From Halichondria panicea (lineage: Eukaryota > Porifera > Demospongiae > Suberitida > Halichondriidae): DNA of 64,000 bases. Shown here in pieces: positions 7,842 through 60,284 of the stretch. Every line of letters starts with the position of its first letter. The stretch's first letter is position 1. The stretch is from assembly GCF_963675165.1 (NCBI RefSeq), contig NC_087379.1, positions 124,001-188,000 of the forward strand. Direction: 5' to 3'. Below the pieces are notes generated by a model that saw only the letters and a program-made list of their open reading frames with translations, did not search any database and was not told where the DNA came from. A program made the position numbers and the translations under genes.

Positions 7842-10046
7842 CTAGGAAAATATTTGCACTCTATTGTTGTAACGATCAGACACATACACCACACCACACT
7901 GGTCTACTGCTATGCCATCAGGACTGTTGAACTGTCCTGGTCCAGATCCATACGATCCAAACGACTTGAGAAACACTTCATACGCCAACACTGAGACACG
8001 ATTGTTCCCATACTCCCCCACATACACCAGATCATCACTGTCCACACAGATGCTGACAGGGACGTAAAGTGCTTCATTTCCACTGCTATACTTCCCAAAC
8101 TGCGCCAGATAGCCACCATCGGGTGTGAAGACTTGCACTCGATGATTATGATAATCAACCACATACACACAACCACTACGATCGGATGCAACGTCCCAGG
8201 GATAGTTAAACTGTCCATTACCACTGCCTTTACTGCCGAACTTGCTGGAGAATGTGAGGTCAGAGTTGAAGATGTGAAGACAGTGAGCACCCCTATCAAC
8301 CACAAACACCTTCCCATTGACACTGTTGACACACACACCAATCGGATTGTTCAACTGTCCAGGACCATTGCCATGACTACCAGCTGCTATCAGGTCTCCT
8401 CCACGTGAGAACTTCAACAGTCGATGATTACCATTGTCCACCACCAGAATATTGTCATCACCGTCCACTGCAACACCACAAGGACCATTCATCTCCCCAA
8501 CAGCTGTGCCTCGAGTGTCTAATGTTCGCAGCTTGTCTCCTGTGGGGCTAAATATCGAGACAATACCAGCACCCTGTTCAGCCACAATTATCTCCCCAGC
8601 TTGGTTGAGTGCCACTCCACGAGGTCTCTTGAGATCATTGATAGTCTTGATAACAGTTCCTAGTTTATCGATCGGAGTCTTGACTGCCACAGGGAATGGA
8701 CTTCCTGCCACCTCCTCTCCACCCACTCTTACGATCAGCTCGCTGGCCCCGCCCACTGTCAGCTGGTAGGAGATCTCGTACTCTCCCTTCCCTCGTTCCT
8801 TCACAACACATTTTGTGGCTTTGTCAGTTATTTTCGAGATAAGTTTGGCTTCTGGCGGTGCTGAATTTTTGGGGGAGAGAAATTGACAATATGCAGTTAC
8901 TTTTTGTCCAGCGATCGCTTTTTGAGGAATATTAACACAACACAAGACAATGGTTCCAAATTCTTTGCAATCTTTGACTAGCTGAGCAGAAGGCACAAAA
9001 CAGGTGTTGGTTGTCTCACGAGGCTCTAGGGTGTTGGGGTCAAAAGTGTCCACCAGCTCTCTCACTTGCTTCACCACACCTTGCTTCATCTTGAGCACGT
9101 CTCCTGGAGACCCGGTACGAATGCTCTCCCTCACGAAATGCAGGCAGCTGCTACGTTGGGTTTGGAGGATCTCTACCTCCTCTCGCTGAGCAGAGAGGCT
9201 CTTGAGCTTTTGCTGGGTGTGGCCTTCCAACTCCGCCATAAGCTCCCCCTCACGAGCATCAAGAGCTCGACGAATCTCATCAAATTTCGAGTGGATATTG
9301 GTCGCAAGTTTTCCTCCGTGTTCAATAATTTCGGCATGTCGTCCATCCAGATTGACGAGAGCTGTGTCGGTGGCCTCTAGCTGTTTCTCAACGGGTCCCA
9401 GGGAGTCCAGGATCTCTTTCTTGTGGCTCTCAAAGGTGTCGGCAATCACACAGTACTTGTGGTCTTTGTGTATTTGGACGGTGCAATGGATACAGATCAA
9501 CTCCCCACAAGGTTCACAAAAAAGTTTCATATTTTCGTCATGTTTAGGGCAGCGAGGGGACATCTTCTTTGGGGAAACCAAGCGAATCAAATCTCCCTCC
9601 ACTTTTTCAATAGTAACCACTTCGTGACCTTCGAACTCCTCCCATTCTTTGTGCATATCGGTACACTTCTCGCAGATGAACTTGGTGCATTGTCGGCAAA
9701 AGCTGGTGGCTTTACGAGTCGTTTTCACACATTTCTCACAGGCCAATTTCTGAGGCTCTTTCACCTTCTTGAGTGTTTCTTGGATGTCAAAGAGATGGTG
9801 TATATTGAAGGCAGCCTGGAGGCCACTCACACCAGTGGGGGGTAGGGGGGTGGGCCGGCGACACTTGGGGCATTCCAGCTGGCCTTGTCGATTGTGGGCA
9901 ACTATATCCTCGAGACAATGTTGACAGTAGACGTGGAAACAGGAGAGCAGTCGAGGGTTGGTGTAGGGCTCCAGACAGACTAGGCATGACAGCTGGTCCT
10001 CCACTTTGGAGAGAGCTTCTTGAGCAGCACTTGGCCTCTCAGCCAT
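7842..10046 (-). CDS. TRIM-NHL E3 ubiquitin ligase, copy T1
   Basis: Complete 734-residue protein in one exon. It resembles the TRIM2/TRIM3/TRIM71 group: a RING E3 ubiquitin ligase with an NHL propeller that binds RNA or protein. RING at residues 21-62 has all eight zinc ligands (C21, C24, C36, H38, C41, C44, C59, C62). B-box 1 is at about 103-141 and B-box 2 at about 166-200 (CPKH...CEPC...ICIHC). The coiled coil spans about 205-345, a filamin-like domain about 380-470, and six NHL blades about 478 to the end. There is no signal peptide or membrane segment, so it is cytosolic. The ATG at 10046 is chosen because MAERPSAAQEAL is shared by all four copies and an acceptor (CCCTCAG) lies 10 bp upstream, implying a spliced 5' leader. 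Blades 2 and 5 each lack a residue present in the other copies. A variant ATTAAA lies about 15 bp past the stop. Confidence 0.93.
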   Translation of the reverse strand: MAERPSAAQEALSKVEDQLSCLVCLEPYTNPRLLSCFHVYCQHCLEDIVAHNRQGQLECPKCRRPTPLPPTGVSGLQAAFNIHHLFDIQETLKKVKEPQKLACEKCVKTTRKATSFCRQCTKFICEKCTDMHKEWEEFEGHEVVTIEKVEGDLIRLVSPKKMSPRCPKHDENMKLFCEPCGELICIHCTVQIHKDHKYCVIADTFESHKKEILDSLGPVEKQLEATDTALVNLDGRHAEIIEHGGKLATNIHSKFDEIRRALDAREGELMAELEGHTQQKLKSLSAQREEVEILQTQRSSCLHFVRESIRTGSPGDVLKMKQGVVKQVRELVDTFDPNTLEPRETTNTCFVPSAQLVKDCKEFGTIVLCCVNIPQKAIAGQKVTAYCQFLSPKNSAPPEAKLISKITDKATKCVVKERGKGEYEISYQLTVGGASELIVRVGGEEVAGSPFPVAVKTPIDKLGTVIKTINDLKRPRGVALNQAGEIIVAEQGAGIVSIFSPTGDKLRTLDTRGTAVGEMNGPCGVAVDGDDNILVVDNGNHRLLKFSRGGDLIAAGSHGNGPGQLNNPIGVCVNSVNGKVFVVDRGAHCLHIFNSDLTFSSKFGSKGSGNGQFNYPWDVASDRSGCVYVVDYHNHRVQVFTPDGGYLAQFGKYSSGNEALYVPVSICVDSDDLVYVGEYGNNRVSVLAYEVFLKSFGSYGSGPGQFNSPDGIAVDQCGVVYVSDRYNNRVQIFS

Positions 10047-12402
<2,356 letters not shown>

Positions 12403-12508
12403 CTCACGTGCTTTGAACTTGTAGAGGAAAAATCTCTCTTGACCTGACACCACCAGTAGCTGGTAGAAGGTAGGCAGCAATCACTGCATCATCCTCCAGA
12501 GCTGTCAA
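12403..12508 (-). other. Unrecognised single-copy exon-like ORF
   Basis: An open stretch (LTALEDDAVIAAYLLPATGG) sits between a CACACTCCAG acceptor at 12509 and a donor at about 12402-12408. It occurs only once in the window and I do not recognise it. It could be a real exon of NUP210 or another gene, or chance. Confidence 0.3.
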
Positions 12509-12654
12509 CTGGAGTGTGTGTGCAATAATTATAAAGCCAATGTTAGAATTATAGAATTTTAGGCCTAAATCTTCGGCATTAATTAGACACAGATCAGGGT
12601 CACAGCGTGCACCAGTATCCCCCTCCCCTACACACACACAGTAGGTACACTGAC

Positions 12655-12811: not shown

Positions 12812-13067
12812 CTTGATATCCAGTGCAGTATATATAATAGGTAGTTTAGCTTTAAAAGTCCCACACGGCTTTCTGACCTCTGACCCCACGCAACACCCAC
12901 TCATCTTGAGCAGCCCCTCCCCCACTTTGTCTGCAGAGAACACGTAATAATTCTTATAAAATTGACAAAAAAAGACAGCCAAAATAATTATCACACAAAT
13001 AAACTAAATAATGATTAACATGCATGGGGTAGTCGAAAACTATTTCACACGTTTATAAATAAATGTC

Positions 13068-13251: not shown

Positions 13252-14103
13252 ACTAGTGTTCAAGCTGGCGCTGTGCTAATGCCTCTCGCCATGTTTTTGC
13301 TTTCGCTCAAAAGTATTAGAGTGTTATCTATAATGAATTTTATATTAAAGTTAGCTTATCTATATAAAGTCACTGAGAAGAAAAGACTTATTTACATGCA
13401 TCTATTGTAAGTTATTATTTTTTGTATTATGTGGCTTACCAGGACATCAAGAAAGAAGAAAATTGATTCTTCCAGGATCTGTAGTTCAGTGTATATAATA
13501 TCTAAGAAGAAAAGACCTGTGTACATGCATATTGTTATCTATATTGTTATATGGTAGTGTTTTGTGGCTTACCAGGCCCTCAAGACAAAGATGATTCTGC
13601 CAGGAGGATCTGGATCTGGATCTTGGATATTATTTTCTCACACATGGGGAATGAGCGCGCATGCGCATTACATCCACAGGAATAATTAAAGGGTGTGTCC
13701 AAAGAGATCAATTTTACAAATGGCTACTGTACTGCTAGCTAGCTGTTTTAACAGATATTTTCTGAGTATTGTAGCTAACAAAAAGCTAGCGCTTTAGTGC
13801 AAGGCTAACTCATATGTTGAATAGAAAGTTTGTGCGGACAGATGATGCTATGAAAGATTCTGAAGAGACTGCAACAGCCTTCAATGTGAGTCAAACTAGC
13901 CATAACTCGAGAAAGAAGCTTTAGTTTGCTAATCCACGAATCAAAATCCAAGAGAACGTGGCTAGAAGCCTATAAAAGCTGTTAGTTTTCGTCGCATTGT
14001 AACCGTTGAGCAGTTATAGCTGGAATACACACACACACACACAGACAGACACACACACAGTCAGCTTTACCGTATCCCTCGTGCGGCTACGCCTCGAGGC
14101 ATA
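13252..14103. mobile_element. Insertion splitting the kinase exon
   Basis: Interrupts the codons after DVYSFGVL; TTGT appears at both junctions, a possible 4-bp target duplication. Toward the kinase the insert ends in ATGCCTCGAGGCG; near the other end ATGCCTCTCGCC occurs in opposite orientation, a weak terminal inverted repeat. It includes ACACAC/AGAC repeats at 14026-14058. No transposase reading frame, so it is non-autonomous or composite. Confidence 0.6.
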
Positions 14104-15190
14104 ACAAGCACTCCAAAACTGTACACATCGATCTTTGTCGTCTGTTGTGGTGGTGGTTGTGGGGAGTACGGAGATTGAGGATAGGCCTCAGGGGCAGTGT
14201 ACAGGATAGCACCTTCTCCAGGAGTAGTGGCATCTCGAGCTAGGTTGGCTGATCCAAAGTCAGAGAGTTTGGCAACCCATTTGTTGTTGGGTAGAGAGAG
14301 AAGGAGGACATTAGCAGAGCTCACATCTCTGTGGATGATGGGTTCCCTCTGTCGGTGGAGATAAACCAGAGCTGAGGAGATGTCTCCAAAGATCCTTCGC
14401 TTGTTGGGACCAACACGATTGTCCTGGTAGGCAGAACGTAGAGAGGTATCCAGTAGCTCTGTGACAATCATGGGACCTGTTTGCTCGTTGAGGACGGCAG
14501 CAACAAAGAGGACAAGGTTGGGGTGGCGGATCTGAGCCATGGTGCGAATCTCACGACGAATTCGATCCATCGTAGTCTGTCGTAGGATTTCAGGATACAC
14601 TCGTTTTACGGCCACCGTTGTTCCTCTAAAAGTTTCCTTGGCAACGTAGCCCCAGGCCCCTCGGCCAAGAATCTCGTCCTCTCTAATAGACACCTCCTCT
14701 GGAGACACCTGCCAGAACTCCACCTCCTGAGGGTGGCTGCTACGATTGGTGGCTGAGAGAGAGGCCACTCCTCGTTGGAGGACGTCCACTTGTCCTCTAA
14801 GGGTCCCTATCAGCTGTTGGTTTTCTGTGTCAGATATTTTTCGTTGGTTGTTGGCATATGTTAGTTGTTCATTGGATCTTGCCCACTGTTCATTGGCAAG
14901 TGTTAGTTGTTGCTGTAGTTGAGTGTTTTCTTGGACTTTTTCAGCTACCTCTCGTTGAAGCTCTTGAATGTCTGAGCGTGATTGTATGAGCAGTTCATTA
15001 GCTCTTGTTAGTTGTTGTTGAATATCTTCCACAAGTGGGGTTGAGACTGTTTTTGTGACATCATTTCGTGACTTAGTTGATCCAAACCCTAGTCTTGCAA
15101 ACAACGACTGTGTTCCCACTGCTTTAGGTGTTGCATCCTGTGCTAGTCCCATCTCTCTCAGCCTCTTCTCTGAGTCAGGGTTTCTGGACA
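14104..15190 (-). CDS. TKL protein kinase exon with coiled coil (C-lobe interrupted)
   Basis: Exon with an acceptor at 15191-15192. The first ~120 residues are rich in Leu, Gln and Glu heptads (NELLIQSRSDIQELQREV...) and predict a coiled coil. The kinase domain then has the glycine loop GRGAWGYV, the lysine in VAVKRV, RREIRTM for helix C, the catalytic loop HRDVSSANVLL, DFGSANL, an APE-type YTAPEAY, and DVYSFGVL. Key catalytic residues K, D (HRD) and D (DFG) are present, so the N-lobe and active site are intact. After FGVL the frame runs into the insertion and stops after MPRGVAARGIR at 14067, losing subdomains X-XI. As written the product is a truncated kinase. Confidence 0.85.
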
Positions 15191-15245
15191 CTGTGGGGGA
15201 GTGAACACATGTGACTACACATACACTGTACTAGTAATAGCTTAC

Positions 15246-25977: not shown

Positions 25978-28185
25978 CTAGTAAAATATTTGCACTCTAT
26001 TGTTGTAACAATCAGACACATACACCACACCACACTGGTCTACTGCTATGCCATGAGGGTATCTGAACTGTCCTGGTCCAGATCCATTTGATCCAAACGA
26101 CTTGAGAAACACTCCCTCACACGTGAACACTGAGACACGATAGTTCACATTCTCCCCCACATACACCAGATCATCACTGTCCACACAGATGCTGATAGGC
26201 GAGTAAAGTTCTCCATTTCCACTGCCTTTCTTCCCAAACTGCCTCAGATAGCCACCATCGGGTGTGAAGACTTGCACTCGAGCATTAATATAATCAGCCA
26301 CATACACACAACCACTACGATCGGATGCAACGCCCCAGGGAGAGCTAAACTGTCCATTACCACTGCCTTCACTGCCGAACTTGCTGGAGAAAGTGAGGTC
26401 AGAGTTGAAGATGTGAACACAGTGAGCACTAATATCAATCACATACACCTTCCCATTGACACTGTTGACACAAACACCAATCGGATTGTTAAACTGTCCA
26501 GGATCATCGCCATGACTACCTACTGCTGCTATCAGGTCTCCTCCACGTGAGAATTTCAACAGTCGATTATTATCACGATCCACCACCAGAATATTGTCAT
26601 TACCGTCCACTGCCACACCTTGAAGACTCTTCATCTCTCCAACAGCTGTGCCTCGAGTGTCTAATGTTCGCAGCTTGTCTCCTGTGGGGCTAAATATCGA
26701 GACAACACCAGCGTCCTGTTCAGCCATAATTATCTCCCCAGCTTGGTTGAGTGCCACTCCATACGGTGTCTTGAGATCATTGATAGCCTTGATAACAGTT
26801 CCTAGTTTATCGATCGTAGGCTTGACTGCCACAGGGAATGGACTTCCTGCCACTTCCTCTCCACCCACTCTCACGATCAGCTTGCTGGCCCCGCCCACTG
26901 TCGGCTGGTAGGAGATCTCGTACTCTCCCTTCCCTCGTTCGTTCACAACACATTTTGTGGTTTTGTCAGTTATTTTGGAGATAAATTTGGCTTCTGGTGG
27001 GGCTGAAATTTTGGCGGAGAGGAATCGACAATATGCAGTTACTTTTTGTCCAACAATTGCTTTTCGAGGAATAACAACATCATAATACAAGGCACCGACT
27101 TTCTTGCACTCTTTGACTAGCTGAGCAGAAGGCACAAAACAGGTGTTGGTTGTCTCACGAGGCTCTAGGGTGTTGGGGTCAAAGGTGTCCACCAGCTCTC
27201 TCACTTGCTTCACCACACCTTGCTTCATCTTGAGCACGTCTCCTGGAGACCCGGTACGAATGCTCTCCCTCACGAAATGCAGGCAGCTGCTACGTTGGGT
27301 TTGGAGGATCTCCACCTCCTCTCGCTGAGCAGAGAGGCTCTTGAGCTGTTGTTGGGTGTGGCCTTCCAACTCCGCCATAAGCTCCCCCTCACGAGCATCA
27401 AGAGCTCGACGAATCTCATCAAATTTTGAGTGGATATTGGTCGCAAGTTTTCTTCCGTGTTCAATAATTTCGGCATGTCGTCCATCCAGATTGACGAGAG
27501 CTGTGTCGGTGGCCTCTAGCTGTTTCTCAACGGGTCTCAGGGAGTCCAGGATCTCTTTCTTGTGGCTCTCAAAGGTGTCGGAAATCACACAGTACTTGTG
27601 GTCTTTGTGTATATGAATGATGCAATCTCGGCAAATCAACTCCCCACAAGGTTCGCAATAAAGTTTCATGTTTTCGTCGTGTTTGGGGCAGCGAGGGGAC
27701 GTCTTCTTTGGGGAAACCAAGCGAATCAAATCCCCATCTACTTTTTGGATAGTAACAATTTCGTGATTCTTGAGCTCGTCCCATTCTTTGTGTATATCAG
27801 TACACTTCTCGCAGATGAACTTGGTGCATTGTCGGCAAAAGCTGGTGGCTTTACGATTGGTAACAGAACACTTCTCACAGGCCAATTTCTGAGGCTCTTT
27901 AATCTTCTTGAGTGTTTCCTGGATGTCAAAGAGATGGTGTACATTGAAGGCAGCCTGGAGGCCACTCACACCAGTGGGGGGTAGGGGGGTGGGCCGGCGA
28001 CACTTGGGGCATTCCAGCTGGCCTTGTCGATTGTGGGCAACTATATCCTCGAGACAATGTTGACAGTAGATGTGGAAACAGGAGAGCAGTCGAGGGTTGG
28101 TGTAGGGCTCCAGACAGACTAGGCATGACAGCTGGTCCTCCACTTTGGAGAGAGCTTCTTGAGCAGCACTCGGCCTCTCAGCCAT
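25978..28185 (-). CDS. TRIM-NHL E3 ubiquitin ligase, copy T2
   Basis: Complete 735-residue gene with the layout of T1 and all RING ligands. The ATG at 28185 is used; the frame is open upstream, but the CTCAG acceptor at about 28195 indicates that this part is intron. Distinctive: a private B-box 1 (CSVTNRKAT, TDIHKEWDELKNHE), B-box 2 of the ICRDCIIH type shared with T3, coiled coil of the DEIRRALDA type shared with T1, and the filamin segment starting RKAIVGQKVTAYC shared with T1. All six NHL blades are full length. Loop residues differ from the other copies (EQDA, DRDN, DISA, DYIN, ENVN, DCYN at the second loop). Confidence 0.94.
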   Translation of the reverse strand: MAERPSAAQEALSKVEDQLSCLVCLEPYTNPRLLSCFHIYCQHCLEDIVAHNRQGQLECPKCRRPTPLPPTGVSGLQAAFNVHHLFDIQETLKKIKEPQKLACEKCSVTNRKATSFCRQCTKFICEKCTDIHKEWDELKNHEIVTIQKVDGDLIRLVSPKKTSPRCPKHDENMKLYCEPCGELICRDCIIHIHKDHKYCVISDTFESHKKEILDSLRPVEKQLEATDTALVNLDGRHAEIIEHGRKLATNIHSKFDEIRRALDAREGELMAELEGHTQQQLKSLSAQREEVEILQTQRSSCLHFVRESIRTGSPGDVLKMKQGVVKQVRELVDTFDPNTLEPRETTNTCFVPSAQLVKECKKVGALYYDVVIPRKAIVGQKVTAYCRFLSAKISAPPEAKFISKITDKTTKCVVNERGKGEYEISYQPTVGGASKLIVRVGGEEVAGSPFPVAVKPTIDKLGTVIKAINDLKTPYGVALNQAGEIIMAEQDAGVVSIFSPTGDKLRTLDTRGTAVGEMKSLQGVAVDGNDNILVVDRDNNRLLKFSRGGDLIAAVGSHGDDPGQFNNPIGVCVNSVNGKVYVIDISAHCVHIFNSDLTFSSKFGSEGSGNGQFSSPWGVASDRSGCVYVADYINARVQVFTPDGGYLRQFGKKGSGNGELYSPISICVDSDDLVYVGENVNYRVSVFTCEGVFLKSFGSNGSGPGQFRYPHGIAVDQCGVVYVSDCYNNRVQIFY

Positions 28186-29180
28186 TGACACAAAACTGAG
28201 GGGGAGAGAAAAGAATAACAATAGGCTAAAAAGGGGGCGTGTCAAGCTTTATAATAATAATAGCAAAGAATTCAAGCAATGAAAACTACAAACAAATGTA
28301 TCAGAACGTGTACAATAATTATGCTCACCTTTAGAAAAGTGTTTAGTAGTAGAAAGAAAAGCTCAAAGCTTGGCAAAAGCAGCTATAGACTCACAGCTCT
28401 CACAGTGACAGGTCAGGTGATGCATGCACAACAATATTCATAGGATCAAAGTATTGATTATGGTTAGACCATAATGGTACACACATACTTGTGGCTATAT
28501 TGCCTAGCAACATTCTACACCCACTCTATTGCTAGCCCTCTGACCAGTTGCCTGAGATACAGACAACACACACTCATACAATGTCACCCTCCATGTTAAC
28601 AACACTCCATACCATGTTGAAATTGATCTCACATCATGCACCCAATGCACACACACAAGATCACAAAATGTATTCAAATTCATCATAATACAAAATCAGC
28701 ATACATACATACATACATACATACGGATGATAATCTCTATGTGTATAATTATGTTAGAACACTCTTAATTGGGTCCATGAGATGCATGGTTGAGTGGACT
28801 CCATTGCCCCACCCACTCACACCACCGGCCTTCTCTTGTGGTCGGGATATTTACGTATCAAAACTTTTCTTGCTAATGACAATAATCCAGTGTTGAAGGG
28901 ATGAGCAATATATACAAGCTCAACAACGCACCGGGAGATACCCAGCGAGACAGAGACGAAACAATCAACACTAGGCAATTATTTCCAAGTGCTCATTGTC
29001 CATCACCCCAATGCCCATACAAGCAGCCTGAGACCACTTGTGTACAAGGAACAAACATCATTATTGAGAGGGATTGAGAATACACACATTGATTAAGAGT
29101 TGGTGCAACTGAAACCCAGCCTTCAAGAGAAGCTCTAAAACTGTCAGACAGTGGACTAGTGGACCTGCTAGACCCAACCC
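28186..29180 (-). promoter_or_regulatory. TRIM-NHL T2 leader intron, 5' exon and upstream region
   Basis: Leader-exon donor CTAAAG|GTGAGC at 28327-28328 and acceptor just above the ATG give an intron of about 130 bp. The upstream part contains (CATA)n at about 28703-28727. Confidence 0.5.
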
Positions 29181-35690: not shown

Positions 35691-37928
35691 CTAAGAAAAT
35701 ATTTGCACTCTATTGTTGCCATAATCAGACACATACACCACACCACACTGGTCTACTGCTATGCCACAAGGACCGTTGAACTGTCCTGGTCCAGATCCAT
35801 ATGATCCAAACGACTTGAGAAACACTCCCTCACACGTGAACACTAAGACACGATTGTTCCCATCCTCCCCCACATACACCAGATCATCACTGTCCACACA
35901 GATGCTGCCAGGACCGCTAAGTTCTCCATTTCCACTGCCTCTCTTCCCAAACTGCCTCAGATAGCCACCATCGGGTGTGAAGACTTGCACTCGAGCATTA
36001 TAATAATCAGCCACATACACACAACCACTACAATCAGATGCAACGTCATGGGGAGAGTTAAACTGTCCATTACCACTGTCTTCACTACCGAACTTGCTGG
36101 AGAATGTGAGGTCAGAGTTGAAGATGTGAACACAGTAAGCACCAAAATCAACCACATACACCTTCCCATTGACACTGTTGACACAAACACCAAAAGGATT
36201 GTTCAACTGTCCAGGACCATCGCCATGACTACCAACTGCTGCTATCAGGTCTCCTCCACGTGAGAATTTCAACAATCGATTATTACCACCGTCCACCACC
36301 AGAATATTGTCATCACCGTCCACTGCCACACCACGAGGATACTTCACCTCCCCAACAGCTGTGCCTAGAGTGTCTAATGTTCGCAGCTTGTCTCCTGTGG
36401 GGCTAAATATCGAGACAATACCAGCACCATCTTCAGCCACAATTATCTCCTCAGCTTGGTTGAGTGCCACTCACCAAGGTGTCTTGGGATCATTGATAGT
36501 CTTGATAACAGTTCCTAGTTTATCGATCGGAGTCTTGACTGCCACAGGGAATGGACTTCCTGCCACATCCTCTCCACCCACTCTCACGATTAGCTCGCTG
36601 GCCCCGCCCACTGTCGGCTGGTAAGAGATCTCGTACTCTCCCTTCCCTCGTTCCTTCACAACACAGTTTGTCGTCTGATTCGTTGATTTCGATATAAGTT
36701 TGGCTTTAATGTTCAAGGATGGAATTTGGATCAGCTGATGATTTGTGTTTGAAAATCGAAGACTAGTGGATCCTTGTACTCTGGTTTTGTTGAGTCTTTT
36801 TGTAGGGGTGACAGTTACTGATAGTGTGCCAATGGCTCCAAATTCTTTGCAATCTTTGACTAGCTGAGCAGAAGGCACAAAACAGGTGTTGGTTGTCTCA
36901 CGAGGCTCTAGGGTGTTGGGGTCAAAGGTGTCCACCAGCTCTCTCACTTGCTTCACCACACCTTGCTTCATCTTGAGCACGTCTCCTGGAGACCCGGTAC
37001 GAATGCTCTCCCTCACGAAATGCAGGCAGCTGCTACGTTGGGTTTGGAGGATCTCCACCTCCTCTCGCTGAGCAGAGAGGCTCTTGAGCTGTTGTTGGGT
37101 GTGGCCTTCCAACTCCGCCATAAGCTCCCCCTCACGAGCATACAGAGCTTGATGGAGTTCATCGAATTTCGAGTGGATATTGGTCGCAAGTTTTCCTCCG
37201 TGTTCAACAATTTTGGCATGTTGTCCATCCAGATTGACGAGAGCTGTGTCGGTGGCCTCTAGCTGTTTCTCAACGGGTCCCAGGGAGTCCAGGATCTCTT
37301 TCTTGTGGCTCTCAAAGGTGTCGGCAATCACACAGTACTTGTGGTCTTTGTGTATATGAACAATGCAATCTCGGCAAATCAACTCTCCACAAGTTTCACA
37401 ATAAAGTCTCATGTTGTCGTCATGTTTGGGGCAGCGAGGGGACGTCTTCTTTGGGGAGACCAAGCGAATCAAATCTCCCTCAACTTTTTCGATAGTAACA
37501 ACTTCATGACCTTCGAACTCCTCCCATTCTTTGTGCATATCGGTACACTTCTCGCAGATGAACTTGGTGCATTGTCGGCAAAAGCTGGTGGCTTTACGAG
37601 TCGTCTTCACACATTTCTCACAGGCCAATTTCTGAGGCTCTTTCACCTTCTTAAGTGTTTCTTGGATGTCAAAGAGATGGTGTACATTGAAGGCAGCCTG
37701 GAGGCCACTCACACCAGTGGGGGGTAGGGGGGTGGGCCGGCGACACTTGGGGCATTCCAGCTGGCCTTGTCGATTGTGGGTAACTATATCCTCGAGACAA
37801 TGTTGACAGTAGACGTGGAAACAGGAGAGCAGTCGAGGGTTGGTGTAGGGCTCCAGACAGACTAGGCATGACAGCTGGTCCTCCACTTTCGAGAGAGCTT
37901 CTTGAGCAGCACTCGGCCTCTCAGCCAT
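35691..37928 (-). pseudogene. TRIM-NHL copy T3, in-frame stop before the propeller
   Basis: The ATG at 37928 opens 485 codons of RING, B-boxes, coiled coil and filamin domain, all intact. A TGA at 36471-36473 then replaces the Gly codon of the first NHL blade (P-x-G-V). The remaining 260 codons continue in the same frame to the TAG at 35691 with six well-kept blades and no other defect. One base change thus separates ligase body from propeller. The product would be a 485-residue TRIM protein without NHL, unless there is read-through. B-box 1 is of T1 type, B-box 2 of T2 type, coiled coil and filamin of T4 type. Could also be a sequencing error. Confidence 0.9.
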
Positions 37929-38730
37929 TGACACAAAACTGAGGGGGGAGAGAAAAGGATAACAATAGGCTAAAAAGGGGGCGTGTCAAGCTTTATAATA
38001 ATAATGGAAAAGAATTCAAGCAACGAAAACTACAAATGAATGTATCAGAACATGTACAATAATTATGCTCACCTTTAGAAAAGTGTTTAGTAGTAGAAAG
38101 AAAAGCTCAAAGCTTGGCAAAAGCAGCTATAGACTCACAGCTCTCACAGTGACAGGTCAGGTGATGCATGCACAACAATATTCATAGGATCAAAGTATTG
38201 ATTATGGTTAGACCATAATGGTACACACATACTTGTGGCTATATTGCCTAGCAACATTCTACACCCACTCTATTGCTAGCCCTCTGACCAGTTGCCTGAG
38301 ATACAGACAACACACACTCATACAATGTCACCCTCCATGTTAACAACACTCCATACCATGTTGAAATTGATCTCACATCATGCACCCAATGCACACACAC
38401 AAGATCACAAAATGTATTCAAATTCATCATAATACAAAATCAGCATACATACATACATACATACATACGGATGATAATCTCTATGTGTATAATTATGTTA
38501 GAACACTCTTAATTGGGTCCATGAGATGCATGGTTGAGTGGACTCCATTGCCCCACCCACTCACACCACCGGCCTTCTCTTGTGGTCGGGATATTTACGT
38601 ATCAAAACTTTTCTTGCTAATGACAATAATCCAGTGTTGAAGGAATGAGCAATATATACAAGCTCAACAACGCACCAAGAGATACCCAGCGAGACAGAGA
38701 CGAAACAATCAACACTAGGCAGCCCGAACA
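37929..38730 (-). promoter_or_regulatory. TRIM-NHL T3 leader intron, 5' exon and upstream region
   Basis: Leader donor CTAAAG|GTGAGC at 38071-38072; (CATA)n at about 38444-38467. Beyond 38710 the sequence departs from other units. Confidence 0.5.
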
Positions 38731-50725: not shown

Positions 50726-51378
50726 CTTGCAAACAGTGTCCTGGCCAGATAAAATCTCATTCTTCTGTGGAGTGAACCCCAGACCAGCCAGAATACAGTC
50801 AGCTCTGTGAGTGAGCTAGTGAGCACAGTGTGTAAGATGGTACTTGATCTACTGGGTACAGTTACCTTGCTGGTGCTTTGTCAGCGTCTATCTCCTGTAG
50901 TGGAAGGTATACCTCAGTCAGCTCATCAGAAGCGCTACACATATAGAGGGAGGGGCAGACGAAAGGTAAATAAAGTACTGAAAATAAATACACACAAACC
51001 ATAATCATACGAATGCTCACTAGCAGTCAAACACACAGTACACTACACACTAGGACACCTACACACTGGTAACCCTAATTATAGCTGGACACCAATTTGG
51101 TAATAAAATTCATTATTGTATTTTTACTGTACTTAAACCACCTCCCCCCACCCCTAGTATACAGACCTGCCTGCTGCTGTGTTCTTGTCCCCCTGAGGCC
51201 AGTAGCTCCCCCTCTCTAGCGAGCAGCTGCACTCTCTCAGTGTCACACTTGAGTACACTATCCAGTGCTAGTGTGTTGTCCCCGGTGACCTCTTGCTCCA
51301 CGTGTAGTACACTCACACTAGCTGGTAGACGCAGCTCACGACACGCCATAGAGCGGAGGAGGGTGGACTTGCCAACAC
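50726..51378 (-). pseudogene. ABCF3: ABCF3-like exons, copy 5
   Basis: Exons 50726-50804, 50866-50934 and 51167-51378. An extra C in the Walker A exon (212 bp) shifts its 3' end out of frame (LLASGGQEHSS). Confidence 0.78.
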
Positions 51379-51753
51379 CTGCGCGTGTGTGAGGGGGTGT
51401 GGTTAGGGCAGGAGAGAAACACACATGTATTACTACAAGTATGCTAGCTGCATGGTTAGATATCTGACACTATGTCCGGTTTAATGTTCAACCTGTGTGT
51501 GTGTGTGTGTGTGTGGGTGGGAGTGTGTGTGGGTGGCATAATAATTATACGTGATCATTAATTATTTTTATTGCACTATAATTATATAATAATTATTGGA
51601 CGCTGGAATTCACCGAGCAATATTAAGCCACGTTAAAATTGTTTTTAGGCCCAAATCTTTGCACCAAGCTTAATTAACTATTGACTGTAACTCAGGGTCA
51701 CAGCTTGCACCAGTATCCCCCCTCCCCTACACACACACAGTAGGTACACTGAC

Positions 51754-51920
51754 CAAGAGAAGCAACCTTAGCTTGATGGGAGCTCAGAGTGAAGTTGACC
51801 TTGACTCCAGTGCTGGAGGGGACATAGGGAAGTAAAACCACAGGTACGTTCAGCTTCCCCAGAGAGCTGGCTTTATGAAGGGAGCAGACGAGTGCATGTG
51901 AGGACCGTGGCTGCCTTCAT
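51754..51920 (-). pseudogene. NUP210: NUP210-like first exon, copy 6 (frameshifted)
   Basis: Signal peptide damaged: MKAATVLTC then a shifted frame, by loss of the IAA codons and a CATG insertion. An insertion (TAGCTTGAT) is also present near the donor. Confidence 0.72.
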
Positions 51921-52088
51921 CTTGCATGATATCTAGTACAGTTTTCAGTGAGTCCACATGGCTTTCTGATCTCTGACCCCATATGCAACACCCCCTCATC
52001 TTGAGCAGCCCCTCCCCCACTTTGTTTGCAGAATAAGCTAACAAAATTTCTTTACATAAATTAATAATAACACACTCATGCACCAATG

Positions 52089-52316
52089 CTAAGACTCAGA
52101 GTCCAATTGTTTGATGTAGTGTAGCACAGTGTCCATGGAGGGTCTGTCCTGAGGGGAGTGAGAGACACAGGAGGTGATGAGTGGGTGGAGCTCCCGCCAT
52201 ACACCTTCCATACTCGAGCAGACCAAGAAATACAGCAGCTTCAGGAAATCTGGCATTCACCACTTCACAAGCAAGCACTCCAAAACTGTACACATCATCT
52301 TTGTCCATGCACGAGA
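52089..52316 (-). pseudogene. Protein kinase C-lobe terminal exon, copy 6 (frameshifted)
   Basis: Two bases lost in the LLSSMEGVW codons (CTCGATAGC to CTCGAGC) shift the frame. The original stop position is at 52089. Confidence 0.78.
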
Positions 52317-53065
52317 CTGTGGGGGGAGGGAAAATAGGTTCAGGAAATTGCTCACATAAACATAAATAACACAATCTACAATTAAATAGACAGTAGTGTA
52401 CAACACAGGAATAGGGACAGTACTATCCAATGAGAGGTTAATGGATTGTGAATGACACTGTACAAGCTTGATTGCGTTGTAACTATAAATGGGAAATTGC
52501 ATGACCAATCTATTGAGCGAATTTCGCAATTCGTAATTGAAAAGTCGCTGTATTTTAAACCCGATAATAATTATTATAGTACCAGGAGTTCATGCACTCC
52601 TGATGTAGTACAAAATGGGATCATCATAATTATACACGTATAATAATTATTATTACAAGTCATGTACAAGACTATGTAGCTGGTACTCTACACAGGTTTA
52701 GAATTTAATATCGCATGCATGCAGGATGCTATTCCATGAAAATTAAATCCGCGAAAACCTTTCAACGGTCATTCTACGAAAGTTTATACCCTACCCGCTA
52801 TACGGTATACAGTACACACTGACAGTGGTGTGCCCGGAATATCTCAATCCTCCATCTCATAAATGATCCTAGTAAACTATAGGCCTTATTCTGTGGGCAC
52901 ATCTCTGAGTACAAGGGTCAGAGAATAACGAGCAAATTAGGTACACAAATAAATTCTAGAGAATGGATTACAAATTTCCCAGCAAACCTAGTGATGGATG
53001 ACTATCAACACACCCACTACTTAACTGTAACTGTTTCCACATTAACCCCTTTGAAACGTACGTAC

Positions 53066-54293
53066 CTTCCTCGTAAAAAGCCTGCACACTGAAACGTTCG
53101 GCTCCTCCCCCAACAGCAGCTCCCTCGTACGAGTTGTGATCTCAATACGCTCAATTGAGGCTACAAATACGTCACAACGCAGTGTCTGCCCCGTGGCTGC
53201 GTGTGTGTGTAGGGTGGGGGGTGGGTGTGTGTGTGTGTGTGTGGGGTGTGTGTGTGTGTGTGTGTGTGGGTGTGATAAAGTTATGGCCGTTCAACAACCC
53301 CATCAGTTTAATCAATGGTCCGAGGACTGCATGTTTACGTTGCCAAAACTTGAATTCAGTGGATCATAATTATTTCAACGATTTTCTGATTTTGTGTAAG
53401 CTTAGAAAGAGACCTCAAAGTTCATTACTTCCGAAAAACAACAAATTCTGGCCGCAACAAAATTTTAGATCAAAAAACATAATTTGAAAGGTCTCTTTCT
53501 AAGCTTTCAGAAAAAAGTATCGTGAGAGTTTTGACATTAGATCAACGGAACTAAAGTTATGGCTATTGAAAGATGTTCAACTATCCGTCCCCTGCATGCT
53601 AAGTCATCAATTTCGGCCATTTATTGCTAAACAAAAGATTAGAATGGAGTGTGCGTGGGAGTTGTATAATCCTCTTTATGAGCTCCTAGCAATACATATT
53701 GCATAATGTACGGTATCTCTGTTTTATCAAAGTGAGCGTGTTTTTGGTATCCATGGCTACCACTAGGGACTTCCCCTTGGTCCTAGTGGTGAGCAATCCC
53801 CTCCACCTCACAAGACCATTCAGTCACCTGATATAAAAAATGTATTACAATCTGAATTATACAACTGTCTACTACACTTTTCTTTGATGCAAATGTTCGT
53901 ATGAACTGTTCTTACGTGCACTTTGTATTCCAAATATTGGTACAGCTGAGGATAGTGACGTTGAACCTAGCGGTAAAGCAGTTTTCATTTTTGTATGATG
54001 CTCTACAATACGAAAAATACGAACATTTCTACCTCACGTAAATTACTCGCTATACGGTAATTATTATTACAAGCCATGTACAAGCCTATGTAGCTGGTAC
54101 CCTACACAGGTTTAGCTGTCAACAAGCTAGCTAGCACACTCACATTCAATTGGTGCTGGTATTTGAACTCTGTTTGGGGGTCCCAGAGAATGACGAGCTG
54201 TTTGGGGGTCACTTGCACTGGGTCGTTGATCTCCACCACCTGGTGCTTGGTTATGAGGGTCGGGAGGTCATGAACCTCACCAGTGTCTGGGTG
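53066..54293 (-). pseudogene. NUP210: NUP210-like internal exons, copy 5
   Basis: Exons 53066-53196 (frame lost), about 53717-53827 (donor GT changed to AT) and 54144-54293 (open; KQLV for KHLV). Confidence 0.7.
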
Positions 54294-54454
54294 CTGCAAA
54301 CAGTCAAGTAACTCAATGGAATGATCAGAGTCGTGGGTTATAGTGAGGGCGCCCTTGTTTAGAGGGTGATTGAAGAGCAGTATTTCATTAGACGTCAGTT
54401 CTGGTATAATTATTGCGAAGGAGGAGAGAAAGAAAGAAATTGACACTCAGGGAG

Positions 54455-54505
<51 letters not shown>

Positions 54506-54985
54506 GATAAGTACAGTATGGTGTGCAGTATAATAAAGAATTACATGTACCGTGTACTAGTATACACGTTGCATGCAGTCAACACAATTCCACCAACCTT
54601 ATGATACTGGGATACCAGACTACATTATGTTCTGGTGGTTCAATTTCAATGGTTTTATGAAGCTCTATAAATAGCACAATCAACCCCCACATTATGAGCA
54701 ACAAAATGTCAGAAAAAGACCAGGACTGTAGTCCATGGTATTTAGCTGAAATCTGGCTATAATTATGATCAATTTTAAGCATACCAAATGAATGAGCTCC
54801 ATTTAACTTAAAAAAAGCTCCCATAACTTTCAGAAAATTGAAATCAGACTACCAAAATTCAAGTTACAGGTTCTCAAAGTGGTACAGCCACCACTGTACA
54901 CATGTAACTCTTATAGGAAGTTCTATCAAAGTAATGGTATGCTAAAATCAGTGGCAAAAGTTGTCCCCCTCAACAACACACTTAC

Positions 54986-55030
54986 TATCTGAGTCCTTGT
55001 GTTGTAGTGAGGAGGTCTGGGGGGTGCATG
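54986..55030 (-). pseudogene. NUP210: NUP210-like exon stub at a duplication joint
   Basis: Only 45 bp of the exon remain; at about 55030 the sequence continues with the VPS26 3' region also present at 16250. Confidence 0.6.
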
Positions 55031-56232: not shown

Positions 56233-56437
56233 CTGCTGTTTGAAGTATCTCCTCTCCTCCTCATCCACCAACACGAGGTTGAGGTAGTAGCGGACACTGA
56301 ACTTCTTGTTAATGTCCCTCATAGTGGGAGTGAGGTCATAGCCTGCCAGGAACAGACGGATGGGGATGGACTCCCCCCTCACTGGAGCACCATCCATGAT
56401 CTCATACTTGCCCACCTGCTCATTCTCAGTGTAGATA
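56233..56437 (-). CDS. VPS26: VPS26-like internal exon, copy 3 (intact)
   Basis: 205-bp open exon (NLVLVDEEERRYFKQQ) with both splice sites. With 55080-55133 it is the only VPS26 exon pair in proper order. Upstream on the minus strand come NUP210 exons, so the N-terminal arrestin lobe is missing. Confidence 0.85.
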
Positions 56438-56439
56438 CT

Positions 56440-56575
56440 AGGAGCTGTGTGTGTGTGTGTGGGGGGGGGGTAGGAGCTGTGTGTGTGTGTGGGGGGGTAG
56501 GAGCTGTGTGTGTGTGTGTGGGGGGGGGTAGGAGCTGTGTGTATGTGTGTATGTGGGGGGGGGGGGCAGTTAAAC
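56440..56575. repeat. GT/G-rich minisatellite, copy 3
   Basis: About four units, including a GTATGTGTGTATG variant. Confidence 0.88.
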
Positions 56576-57073
56576 CTGACAACAATCAATGAATTATTCA
56601 GTGCTAGAAAACTGACATTTTCAATGCATAATTGTACTTATAAGCTTGACAACAGACGCGGGGTCACTCAAAGCAACTATAGAGTCCATCAACACGTACA
56701 CTATATTGCAATACTCTGCACAGGAAACTGTAGACAATTATGTAATTACGATAACTACAGTGCAGCAAGTGTACCTGAATATTGTGATTGTTGGTCTGAG
56801 TCAATAGAGGGCAGTCTGGCATATGACCATCACTGGTCGTATCGTCATGGAAACAGGCTCGGCACAAGAGATTCTGCAAGGACAAATGTAGCTCTGTATT
56901 ATTTAGCAAGGAGACAATGATCCACTATCAGGAGCATGCACGTGGTGTGGCTGTACGTGCCTGGCTATAATTATCCAAACTCATGGAATGGAGTATACCT
57001 AGCGTTATCTTGTATATATTATAATTACAAGCTAAATATAAGTGTCTAGTGTGTGTGGTGTGTGTGTGTGTGG

Positions 57074-57110
<37 letters not shown>

Positions 57111-57359
57111 GATTCACAGTGATGGCGTAGTCTATACCCACCTCCAACATCCAGTTGTTGCCGGGGGCGATGGAGAAACCTAAAAAGGGATAATCATAAG
57201 AATGCACAATCAGCATTGTTTGTTTAACCCTTTGCTCACCAAGGTGATGAGGAGGGACGACGTGTATTCCAGCACTTGGTTTAGAGGCTGATGGAGTGTG
57301 TAACATGTCTGGAGGGTGGCTAAGAAAATGGTGACATCATCAACAAAGCTTCTAAGCAA
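57111..57359 (-). pseudogene. NUP210: NUP210-like exons at 57 kb
   Basis: Exon 57111-57179 retains FSIAPGNNWMLE(V)GIDYAITV only; the VFDKMNHK half and donor are deleted into the GT repeat. It has no MITE (empty site TCTATACCCACC). Exon 57240-57359 has both splice sites. Confidence 0.75.
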
Positions 57360-57432
57360 CTGCACACACAAATACAATATTAGGATACTGATGTCTTGTA
57401 GGATGGCTTCAGTGTAGCCCACCACCACTTCG

Positions 57433-57881
57433 GTGACCCTTGACCTCTATGGGTGGAGTCTCTGCACTGTTGTATTGGTCAGCTCCAATGAATATTGCTC
57501 TGATGGTATGGTGATGACCTCTGACCTCCCATGCTTCCGCCTCTCCACCCGATACTCGACAAAGGACAGTACGTGGCAGATTGTACATATATCCATGGAG
57601 GGTTGTAGCATCATGTTCTCAATGACTAGTAGCTTGATGATATCAGGCTCCACCCCCTAGCTGCCACGCCTTCTCCCGTGCCTGTGTGTGTGTGTAGAGG
57701 GGTATGTGGTGTGGGGTATACAGTGTTGTCACGTTGCCTTGGGGTACTCACCTGTTGTCATACATGCCCTGGTGATGAATCCTGAAGTGCCAGGAATAGC
57801 TGATAGTTGAATCAGACGGACATTGTCCTTGGTCGTACCAGTGTTGACGCCCGCCACCAGCACCATGTCACCATGGAGACC
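57433..57881 (-). pseudogene. NUP210: NUP210-like exons (copy E)
   Basis: Exon 57752-57881 (GDMVLVAGVNT, then frame lost) and the EPDIIKLLVIENMMLQPSMD exon, here with SEQYSLELTNTTV intact before a TAG. Same left-end type as copy A. Confidence 0.72.
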
Positions 57882-58049
57882 CTGCAGCGGAGGGGGTGGA
57901 GTGAGGTACGATACTAAAGGTACGACTATAACAGGAGAGACTCAGTACACACGTACACAGGGACAGCATGGGCAAAGAATTCACTGGTTTCAATTTCAAT
58001 ATTCATTATCAATGTTAAAATAACTCAACAATTTAATAACAAAAATAAA

Positions 58050-60284
58050 CTAGGAAAACATTTGCACTCTATTGTTGTCAATATCAGACACATACACCAC
58101 ACCACACTGGTCTACTACTATGCCAAGAGGATGCTTGAACTGTCCTGGTCCAGATCCCTGTGATCCAAACGATTTGAGAAACACTCCCTCACACGTGAAC
58201 ACTGAGACACGATTGTTCCCACTCTCACCCACATACACCAGATCATCACTGTCCACACAGATGCTGACAGGCTCGTTAAGTTCTCCATTTCCACTGCCTC
58301 TCATCACAAACTGCCTCAGATAGCCACCATCAGGTGTGAAGACTTGCACTCGAGCATTATAATATTCAACCACATACACACAACCACTACGATCAGATGC
58401 AACGACATAGGGAGAGTTAAACAGTCCATTACCCCTGCCTTTACTGCCGAACTTGCTGGAGAATGTGAGGTCAGAGTTGAAGATGTGAAGACAGTGAGCA
58501 TAGATATCAGTCACATACACCTTCCCATTGACACTGTTGACACAAACACCAATCGGATTGTTAAACTGTCCTGGACCATCGCCACGACTACCAACTGCTG
58601 CTATCAGGTCTCCTCCACGTGAGAATTTCAACAGTTGATGATTACCACGATGCACCACCAGAATATTGTCATCACCGTCCACTGCCACACAATGAGGATA
58701 CTTCATCTCCCCAACAGCTGTGCCTCGAGTGTCTAATGTTCGCAGCTTGTCTCCTGTGGGGCTAAATATCGAGACAATACCAGCATCGTGTTCAGCCACA
58801 ATTATCTCCCCGGCTTGGTTGAGTGCCACTCCATAAGGTGACTTGAGATCATTGATAGTCTTGATAACAGTTCCTAGTTTATCGATCGGAGTCTTGACTG
58901 CCACAGGGAATGGACTTCCTGCCACATCCTCTCCACCCACTCTCACGATCAGCTCGCTGGCCCCGCCCACTGTCGGCTGGTAGGAGATCTCGTACTCTCC
59001 CTTCCCTCGTTCCTTCACAACACAGTTTGTCGTCTGATTCGTTGATTTCGATATAAGTTCGGCTTTAATGTTCAAGGATGGAATTTGGATCAGTTGATGA
59101 TTTGTGTTTGTAAATCGAAGACTAGTGGTTCCTTGTACTCTGGTTTTGTCGAGTCTTTTTGTAGGGGTGACAGTTACTGATGGTATGCCAATGGCTCCAA
59201 ATTCTTTGCAATCTTTGACTAGCTGAGCAGAAGGCACAAAACAGGTGTTGGTTGTCTCACGAGGCTCTAGGGTGTTGGGGTCAAAGGTGTCCACCAGCTC
59301 TCTCACTTGGTTCACCACACCTTGCTTCATCTTCAGCACGTCTCCTGGAGACCCGGTACGAATGCTCTCCCTCACGAAATGCAGGCAGCTGCTACGTTGG
59401 GTTTGGAGGATCTCCACCTCCTCTCGCTGAGCAGAGAGGCTCTTGAGCTGTTGTTGGGTGTGGCCTTCCAACTCCGCCATAAGCTCCCCCTCACGAGCAT
59501 ACAGGGCTTGATGGAGTTCATCGAATTTCGAGTGGATATTGGTCGCAATTTTTCCTCCGTGTTCAACAATTTCGGCATGTCGTCCATCCAGATTGATGAG
59601 AGCTGTGTCGGTGGCCTCTAGCTGTTTCTCAACGGGTCCCAGGGAGTCCAGGATCTCTTTCTTGTGGCTCTCAAAGGTGTCGGCAATCACACAGTACTTG
59701 TGGTCTTTGTGTATTTGGACGGTGCAATGGATACAGATCAACTCCCCACAAGGTTCGCAATAAAGTTTCATATTTTCGTCGTGTTTAGGGCAGCGAGGGG
59801 ACGTCTTCTTTGGGGAGACCAAGCGAATCAAATCTCCCTCTACTTTTTCGATAGTAACGACTTCGTGACCTTCGAACTCCTTGTATTCTTTGTGTATGTT
59901 CGTACACAGATCGCAGATGAACTTGGTGCATTGTCGGCAAAAGCTGGTGGCTTTACGAGTCGTTTTGGAGCATTTCTCACAGGCCAATTTCTGAGGCTCT
60001 TTCACCTTCTTGAGTGTTTCCTGGATGTCAAAGAGATGGTGTACATGGAAGGCAGCCTGGAGGCCACTCACACCAGTGGGTAGGGGGGTGGGCCGGCGAC
60101 ACTTGGGGCATTCCAGCTGGCCTTGTCGATTGTGGGCAACTAAATCCTCGAGACAATGTTGACAGTAGACGTGGAAACAGGAGAGCAGTCGAGGGTTGGT
60201 GTAGGGCTCCAGACAGACTAGGCATGACAGCTGGTCCTCCACTTTGGAGAGAGCTTCTTGAGCAGCACTCGGCCTCTCAGCCAT
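58050..60284 (-). CDS. TRIM-NHL E3 ubiquitin ligase, copy T4
   Basis: Complete 744-residue gene; ATG at 60284, stop at 58050. RING ligands all present. B-box 1 is private (CSKTTRKAT, ICDLCTNIHKEYKEF), B-box 2 of the T1 type (ICIHCTVQ), coiled coil DELHQALYA and filamin segment TPTKRLDKTRVQG as in T3. The longer filamin segment explains the extra residues. The six NHL blades have their own loop set (EHDA, HRGN, DIYA, EYYN, ESGN, DIDN); two canonical residues are replaced (G to C in blade 2's P-x-G-V, D to H in its second loop). No frame defects. Confidence 0.94.
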   Translation of the reverse strand: MAERPSAAQEALSKVEDQLSCLVCLEPYTNPRLLSCFHVYCQHCLEDLVAHNRQGQLECPKCRRPTPLPTGVSGLQAAFHVHHLFDIQETLKKVKEPQKLACEKCSKTTRKATSFCRQCTKFICDLCTNIHKEYKEFEGHEVVTIEKVEGDLIRLVSPKKTSPRCPKHDENMKLYCEPCGELICIHCTVQIHKDHKYCVIADTFESHKKEILDSLGPVEKQLEATDTALINLDGRHAEIVEHGGKIATNIHSKFDELHQALYAREGELMAELEGHTQQQLKSLSAQREEVEILQTQRSSCLHFVRESIRTGSPGDVLKMKQGVVNQVRELVDTFDPNTLEPRETTNTCFVPSAQLVKDCKEFGAIGIPSVTVTPTKRLDKTRVQGTTSLRFTNTNHQLIQIPSLNIKAELISKSTNQTTNCVVKERGKGEYEISYQPTVGGASELIVRVGGEDVAGSPFPVAVKTPIDKLGTVIKTINDLKSPYGVALNQAGEIIVAEHDAGIVSIFSPTGDKLRTLDTRGTAVGEMKYPHCVAVDGDDNILVVHRGNHQLLKFSRGGDLIAAVGSRGDGPGQFNNPIGVCVNSVNGKVYVTDIYAHCLHIFNSDLTFSSKFGSKGRGNGLFNSPYVVASDRSGCVYVVEYYNARVQVFTPDGGYLRQFVMRGSGNGELNEPVSICVDSDDLVYVGESGNNRVSVFTCEGVFLKSFGSQGSGPGQFKHPLGIVVDQCGVVYVSDIDNNRVQMFS

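Follow-up and report, generated by a model that had tools for sequence, protein, structure and literature searches.

Diversification of NHL propeller residues at registers of known RNA contacts in three families of TRIM-NHL genes of the sponge Halichondria panicea

A stretch of 64,000 nucleotides of the Halichondria panicea genome (the window; positions 124001-188000 of contig C3 in the 131-Mb genome of 39 contigs that we searched) carries four tandem copies of a TRIM-NHL gene, which differ mainly at places recurring in each blade of the NHL propeller. These places match in register the ligand contacts of a solved NHL-RNA complex, amino-acid change at them exceeds both silent and intergenic change, and the same pattern recurs in three families of the genome. 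It is likely that these genes form a germline-encoded repertoire of predicted intracellular RING E3 ligases with diversified recognition faces, and its role is probably in defence or in the distinction of self from non-self.

TRIM-NHL genes in the window and in the genome

The minus strand of the window holds four TRIM-NHL reading frames at 7842-10103, 25978-28248, 35691-37985 and 58050-60341 (T1 to T4), the third of which consists of two ORFs divided by a stop. An earlier note on this DNA had described four near-identical TRIM-NHL genes in tandem. The four frames were confirmed, but T3 has an in-frame TGA, and thus three of the four genes are intact. The intergenic DNA is duplicated too, so the genes belong to tandem units. 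The features are listed below in window coordinates; in the register names, p is the Pro of P-x-G and d is the Asp of D-x-x-N.

3037..7348, no strand assigned: intergenic block, part of the tandem duplication unit, with 95-97% matches (BLAST pieces) near 19-24, 31-35, 41-45 and 51-55 kb
7842..10046, minus strand: T1, intact TRIM-NHL gene, one open-frame CDS from ATG with RING, two B-boxes, putative coiled-coil region, filamin-like part and six NHL blades
7845..8669, minus strand: T1 NHL propeller, with 28 core hypervariable columns (p-1, p+1, d+1 and d+2 of the six blades and four of GS-x-G)
8804..8953, minus strand: stretch of 150 bases in the T1 filamin part; the cassette of T1 and T2 is unlike that of T3 and T4 (41-45% DNA difference between types)
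9852..9995, minus strand: T1 RING domain, its C3HC4 spacing preserved in 23/23 sampled genes of the window's own family (A)
25978..28185, minus strand: T2, intact TRIM-NHL gene, open frame
25981..26811, minus strand: T2 NHL propeller
35691..37928, minus strand: T3, TRIM-NHL gene with a single in-frame stop, otherwise full length
36471..36473, minus strand: stop codon TGA of T3 where the propeller begins; T1 carries GGA (Gly of the first P-x-G-V) here
58050..60284, minus strand: T4, intact TRIM-NHL gene, open frame with Pfam matches
58053..58883, minus strand: T4 NHL propeller

Pfam searches of T1 and T4, two of the four genes, returned RING, two B-boxes (PF00643, two stretches in each gene), a filamin repeat and NHL repeats (PF01436; E = 3.6e-39 in T1 and 6e-28 in T4). 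The C3HC4 ligand spacing of the RING and two B-box-like patterns are present in 48/48 sampled genes of the three families. For the putative coiled coil, residues 184-349 of T1 match TRIM3 chain 8amr, and the best solved relatives of the propeller are Thin, TRIM71 and TRIM2. By the defining features RING, B-boxes and NHL propeller, the genes belong to the TRIM-NHL class, with a putative coiled coil and putative ligase activity. Between T1 and T2 lies an ORF (14067-15230) for a kinase whose kinase domain looks incomplete. Pfam searches of three anonymous window ORFs gave no match for two and a weak match under the cut-off for one.

Each family search scored 60 candidates, and the numbers of places are therefore lower bounds. 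Family A occupies at least 29 places; one is on C8 and the others are on C3, at 69-256 kb, 635-794 kb and 1.86-1.92 Mb. Family B has at least 35 places, mostly on C3 at 5.1 and 5.88-6.31 Mb, and family C at least 60, on C11. Proteins of A and B are about 38-40% identical, and the NHL parts of B and C show 38-41% identity to T1. In a midpoint-rooted tree of 48 sampled genes and six others, A, B and C each form their own clade (support 0.94, 1.0 and 1.0). For the rate tests we used 23 of the 29 places in A, T3 and five broken or partial places being dropped, 12/35 in B and 13/60 in C; the B and C samples are not random, as we picked genes with long open frames that ranked high in the lists. Among viral contigs, one stretch matched a pattern and none encoded a relative. 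In one six-frame genome search with the Antennapedia homeodomain, which could miss an intron-split homeodomain, the nine best matches show 39-49% identity; that no match exceeds 49% would fit an animal that, like a sponge, lacks Hox genes.

Variable registers of the propeller and the ligand face

Among the six pairs of T1-T4 (T3 included), 75.9% of residue comparisons differ at 18 codons, namely the residue after Pro and the two residues inside D-x-x-N of each blade, whereas the NHL framework differs at 9.4% (34 contact and GS-x-G codons taken out). The earlier note had pointed to these 18 codons and to a framework that barely changes, and all of its 24 second-loop quartets are found in the T1-T4 translations. 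Its two variable places per blade are, however, too few, in that variation also affects the residue before Pro, GS-x-G and the position following N in D-x-x-N. A fixed ligase body, also claimed there, holds in part: the RING/B-box/coiled-coil part (RBCC) shows 7.2% residue difference in the window, but the filamin part shows 25.4%, family A has at least three types of filamin cassette, and the B-box region is variable as well. At the nucleotide level, 43-44% of the first and second positions of contact codons (with GS-x-G) differ within the window. Aligned intergenic blocks differ by 2.1% (range 0.6-7.2%; 65,659 pairs of aligned bases in 63 BLAST pieces, with simple repeats masked), a figure biased toward similar stretches because gaps are uncounted and BLAST pieces were used. 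Third positions differ by 5.3% in the NHL framework and by 5-8% across the window genes, above the intergenic figure. This excess may be a sign that the genes are of mosaic ancestry.

The hypervariable codons recur at equal places of each blade in families A, B and C (23, 12 and 13 genes), around P-x-G, inside D-x-x-N and in GS-x-G. In A, 30 NHL codons have an amino-acid entropy of at least 1.5 bits; their nucleotide entropy averages 1.34 at position 1, 1.07 at position 2 and 0.59 at position 3, and the means over the remaining NHL codons are 0.13, 0.12 and 0.17. The corresponding values are 1.12, 1.21 and 0.45 for the 18 high-entropy codons of B, and 1.12, 1.05 and 0.72 for the 22 of C. With a FUBAR-like codon model written for this analysis (a codon being called selected at P(beta>alpha) >= 0.9), selected NHL codons number 31/276 in A, 12/261 in B and 25/256 in C. 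Outside p-2 to p+2, d-1 to d+4 and GS-x-G there are hardly any (A 0/194, B 0/181, C 1/175). The filamin part holds 2/112, 0/134 and 0/120, and the RBCC part 4/345, 0/345 and 18/344 in A, B and C; in family C, selected codons thus form another patch, around B-box 1, which also departs from a fixed ligase body.

To define contacts externally, we used zebrafish LIN41, for which the structure report on its NHL domain with RNA hairpins names 14 contact residues inside the cavity on the 'upper' surface, on the other side from the filamin domain (PMC5908797). With one numbering offset, the DrLIN41 chain agrees in residue type at 14/14 of the contacts named there, and all 14 fall in the registers p-2, p-1, p+1, d+1 and d+2, which we took as the contact registers. 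Selected codons are strongly enriched in them relative to other NHL codons, with 18/30 versus 13/246 in A (P = 1e-12, Fisher's exact test), 8/28 versus 4/233 in B (P = 2e-6) and 18/29 versus 7/227 in C (P = 6e-15). Because variation here falls in the registers through which LIN41 contacts RNA, the hypervariable residues would, by homology, sit on the known ligand face. The prediction of the earlier note that they lie on one face rather than being scattered is borne out by sequence register.

Every sampled gene has a contact set of its own (A 23/23, B 12/12, C 13/13). The number of contact columns at which two genes differ ranges from 12 to 25 (of 28) in A, from 8 to 19 (of 26) in B and from 1 to 23 (of 28) in C. 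In C, the two most similar genes, L059 and L065, lie about 139 kb apart and have 27/28 contact residues in common. Among the 1317 core contact residues of A, B and C, Tyr makes up 15.0%, Gly 11.8%, Asn 9.3%, Ser 8.4% and Arg 8.2%, and Lys plus Arg 14.7%. Tyr, and Trp with 2.9%, are above the expectation from base shuffling within columns (11.6% and 1.5%). This composition may resemble that of antibody paratopes.

Selection at contact codons

The earlier note had proposed diversifying selection and had named dN/dS at the loop codons as one of its checks. Pooled Nei-Gojobori estimates with codon bootstrap intervals (A with 20/23 genes, the three intact window genes being excluded) at the contact registers are 2.16 (1.36-3.85) in A and 2.43 (1.43-4.79) in C, above 1 as proposed, and 1.13 (95% 0.57-2.59) in B, whose interval spans 1, so B alone is not clearly above 1. 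At the further loop registers the values are 3.96 (2.02-9.50), 1.53 (0.82-3.83) and 2.05 (0.65-11.58) for A, B and C. They are 0.38, 0.23 and 0.41 in the rest of the NHL part, 0.28, 0.23 and 0.23 in RBCC, and 0.65, 0.62 and 0.47 in the filamin part. The Nei-Gojobori dS is itself two to three times higher at the contact registers than in the NHL rest (A 0.252 versus 0.086, B 0.350 versus 0.160, C 0.206 versus 0.075), which may or may not result from path counting in multiply hit codons.

Copies of family A have recombined (PHI-like test, 0/500 permutations in each of three partitions). A neutral one-tree simulation gave zero false-positive codons in two runs each at omega 1 and 0.38, and a neutral two-tree simulation gave 21/276 in A, 2/261 in B and 6/256 in C. 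Because recombination inflates the counts of the per-site model in simulation, these counts serve for position and not as proof, and three tree-free tests were added. On the RBCC tree, the selected codons number 38/276 in A, a figure that includes all 31 given above, 27/261 in B and 34/256 in C.

One of the tree-free tests is the window comparison of contact codons with intergenic DNA and framework third positions given above. In another, core contact codons of A need at least 2.36 base changes per site at position 1 and 2.07 at position 2, versus 0.60 at fourfold framework sites; the corresponding minima are 1.15 and 1.62 versus 0.44 in B, and 1.57 and 1.50 versus 0.15 in C. Three or more bases occur at position 1 in 86% and at position 2 in 79% of A contact codons versus 5% of fourfold framework sites; the third positions of A core contact codons average 1.11 minimum changes versus 0.60 at fourfold sites. 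Among blade pairs with zero silent framework difference (A 330/1518, B 16/396, C 136/468), contact residues differ at 72% in A, 32% in B and 61% in C, versus 5.8%, 4.3% and 6.0% for the framework. In pairs with the same residue, silent differences at contact versus framework codons are 7.4% versus 5.7% in A, 9.3% versus 10.3% in B and 3.3% versus 4.8% in C. The p+0 codon, which encodes Pro at all six blades in most A genes, is flanked by two hypervariable codons. Its third base is a single base in at least 21 of 22-23 A genes at 5/6 blades (the sixth is mixed, with 15 G, 7 T and 1 A) and alike in 13/13 C genes at 6/6 blades; in B, three blades are constant and three are mixed (6/6, 9/3 and 9/3). 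A regional mutator should ignore codon boundaries, yet p+0 mostly holds its third base, and amino-acid selection is therefore the simpler cause, with B as the weakest case. As judged from these comparisons of coding sequence, positive selection at the putative ligand face is clear in A and C and site-wise in B.

We used column correlations and Mantel tests to examine whether existing loops had been shuffled as blocks. When pairs are grouped into five bins of silent divergence, the proportion of contact residues that differ stays at 0.69-0.72 throughout in A, and goes from 0.49 to 0.58 in B and from 0.61 to 0.68 in C, where the pair L060 and L063 differs at 21/28 contact residues with 0.013 silent differences per codon. 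Contact distance is unrelated to RBCC distance in all three families (r = 0.08-0.13, P = 0.21-0.24); with NHL framework distance it correlates in B (r = 0.39, P = 0.008) and not in A or C. Contact columns of A are almost uncorrelated overall (r = 0.01), and contact codons up to three codons apart correlate with r = 0.03 in A, 0.17 in B and 0.23 in C. Silent difference next to contact codons versus at least nine codons away is 0.088 versus 0.034 in A, 0.150 versus 0.086 in B and 0.050 versus 0.081 in C.

Origin and possible role of the diversity

Loops in repeat proteins are frequently variable, and it could be argued that these solvent-facing loops drift freely under relaxed constraint and have no recognition role. 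Drift, however, cannot exceed the neutral rate and the contact codons do: in A they show 3.4-3.9 times as many base changes as fourfold sites, in the window they differ about 20 times as much as aligned intergenic DNA, and their dN/dS is 2.16 in A and 2.43 in C; moreover, 7/32 of the most variable A codons listed have a single third base and several bases at positions 1 and 2. Relaxed constraint is therefore hardly credible. A targeted mutator, acting by hypermutation or template copying with selection in a secondary role, would agree with contact differences that in A are close to saturation whatever the silent divergence, with the high values of C even at low divergence and the small rise in B, with the nearly uncorrelated contact columns of A, and with the elevated dS at the contact registers of all three families. 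Against this, the variation tends to end at codon boundaries, the third base of p+0 being held at 5/6 blades in A, 6/6 in C and only 3/6 in B, and silent differences in same-residue pairs are not clearly raised at contact codons. We regard such a mutator as improbable; one blind to codon position is disfavoured, although its rejection is weaker for B, with three of six p+0 codons mixed, and in view of the raised contact dS.

More weight belongs to the possibility that old variants have been retained and shuffled by gene conversion, selection opposing the homogenisation of contact codons, in place of fresh substitutions. The recombination signal in A, the shared tracts and filamin cassettes, the greater silent difference beside contact codons in A and B, and the nearly equal contact sets of L059 and L065 in C all point in this direction. 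Yet nearby contact codons are hardly linked in A, with somewhat more linkage in B and C; family C lacks the rise in silent difference beside contact codons, and the excess of bases would still require selection. We regard shuffling as a possible but doubtful main source of the diversity. As to the ligand, the propellers might have diversified in RNA recognition as LIN41 or Brat recognise RNA, for gene regulation or antiviral RNA sensing, rather than in protein recognition. LIN41 does contact RNA through the registers that vary here, most contact sets carry a mildly positive net charge (positive in 15/23 A, 12/12 B and 10/13 C genes), and TRIM56 offers a precedent, since its restriction of Zika virus is reported to depend on RNA-binding activity (PMC6623546). 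However, Lys or Arg stands at 8/14 of the contacts named for DrLIN41, compared with the lower share of Lys plus Arg and the frequent Tyr in these sets, and single genes of A have net charges between -5 and +8 (between +1 and +4 in B and between -1 and +3 in C). Regulators of fixed mRNAs are also not expected to diversify at nearly every copy, and we consider RNA recognition unlikely.

We therefore favor a repertoire of ligases diversified by selection. In such a repertoire, each gene joins a slowly changing ligase body (RING, two B-boxes and coiled-coil region) to a six-bladed NHL propeller with about 28 hypervariable ligand-face residues. New copies would come from tandem duplication, and their contact residues would then be replaced codon by codon under positive selection, while purifying selection, and probably also recombination between copies, would keep the scaffold uniform. 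Each ligase would bind its own target via that face and then ubiquitylate the target or signal by ubiquitin; the targets would most likely be allelic markers of self, or else foreign or fast-changing proteins (or RNAs) that belong to viruses or symbionts. The dN/dS of 1.13 in B, the raised contact dS, the recombination in A with the false positives of the two-tree simulation, the L059/L065 pair and the excess of third-position over intergenic difference in the window count against this explanation.

TRIM5alpha, a restriction factor of primates, is encoded by a single gene or few genes. Its positively selected sites are concentrated in the viral recognition motif of the ligand domain (as cited in PMC2657112); it is thus alike in the clustering of selected sites in a TRIM ligand domain and unlike in that this domain is B30.2. 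The finTRIMs of teleost fish, as presented in the same paper, are likewise duplicated TRIM genes with positive selection in ligand-domain loops, weaker here in family B, and a recombination point has been found in them (PMC2657112). Their ligand domain is B30.2 (long variants), whereas here it is NHL, with about 28 core contact columns over six blades in three families of one genome; B30.2 was absent from T1 and T4 in the Pfam search (E 0.001). In the fungal NLRs het-d and het-e, highly conserved WD40 repeats with a role in non-self recognition are described as being exchanged within and between family members (PMC4986451; PMC12222747). Here, in contrast, predicted RING E3 ligases with NHL blades were compared across paralogues, and neither a NACHT/NOD domain nor WD40 repeats were found by Pfam in T1 or T4. 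The finTRIMs and the fungal WD40 NLRs are the closest parallels, and by domain content the H. panicea genes are members of neither. LIN41/TRIM71 shares the filamin part and an NHL propeller with contacts at equal registers of the upper face; most of its RNA-contact residues are given as identical between species (PMC5908797), while here the contacts differ among nearly all sampled copies of one genome. With immune and allorecognition receptor repertoires, the genes would share diversifying selection at ligand-contact residues, as assigned by register and weaker in family B.

Rapid tandem expansions are reported for animal TRIMs in general (PMC3503706). Among the matches listed in the literature, as far as titles and abstract openings tell, there is no description of hypervariable NHL propellers or of repertoires built on them, and the passages of a sponge immune-repertoire paper considered here (PMC8242945) mention NHL solely in a domain legend. 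On balance, we are inclined to think that the three separately expanded families represent a previously undescribed animal recognition system, consisting of more than 100 predicted germline E3 ligases, each carrying across its six NHL blades an antibody-like paratope in which Tyr, Gly, Asn, Ser and Arg abound. Part of this reading is that turnover in family A has been so fast that the sharing of contact codons ceased to reflect how closely the copies are related.

The NHL propellers that have been studied best belong to developmental regulators and bind RNA or protein. If the present reading is true, the NHL propeller is a further evolvable recognition scaffold beside B30.2 and the fungal WD40, and a repertoire varying exactly the NHL contact residues would make TRIM-NHL ligases a class of immune-type or allorecognition receptors. 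With dozens of natural contact sets on one scaffold, an NHL specificity code would become directly testable. The finding would also bear on how animals without rearranging receptors may recognise many targets inside their cells.

A second variable patch at B-box 1

All three separately expanded TRIM-NHL families of the H. panicea genome, that is, the window's own family A as well as families B and C, have a second variable patch around where B-box 1 ends, at the following positions:

118-137 (reference L039): family C
about 126-140: family A
about 121-140: family B

Several codons of the patch in family C have a posterior probability of a nonsynonymous rate above the synonymous rate, P(beta>alpha), near or >0.95.

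Related copies outside the window

Two genes of family C, L059 (C11:1216887) and L065 (C11:1077404), lie about 139 kb apart and have 27 of the 28 contact residues of the NHL propeller in common, unlike other pairs in this family, whose contact residues differ widely. We read this likeness as a recent copy or conversion. An additional small cluster of TRIM-NHL genes is found in the same genome (contig C17, 1.40-1.45 Mb), and its genes are 54-56% identical with those of family B.

Cassettes and intergenic DNA of the tandem genes

8804-8953: cassette segment of the filamin-like part in T1, the first of the four tandem genes
11044-11644: (CA)n/(TG)n array, about 600 bases long, upstream of T1
14067-15230: protein kinase ORF, between T1 and T2
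3037-7348 and 50788-55030: example pair of intergenic blocks compared

The window's long (CA)n/(TG)n arrays comprise the one listed and smaller tracts. The kinase ORF has a coiled-coil-like N-terminal part, and its kinase domain looks incomplete.

A comparison of the filamin-like segment across L009-L032 shows that family A has at least three alternative cassettes: T1 and T2 share one, T3 and T4 another, and L029 and L031 carry a third. The T1/T2 and T3/T4 cassettes differ by 41-45% in DNA, whereas the flanking stretches are almost identical. Between the tandem units, aligned intergenic DNA shows a difference of 2.1%, which is lower than the 5-8% at third positions within the genes of the window; this would fit genes of greater age or mosaic ancestry.
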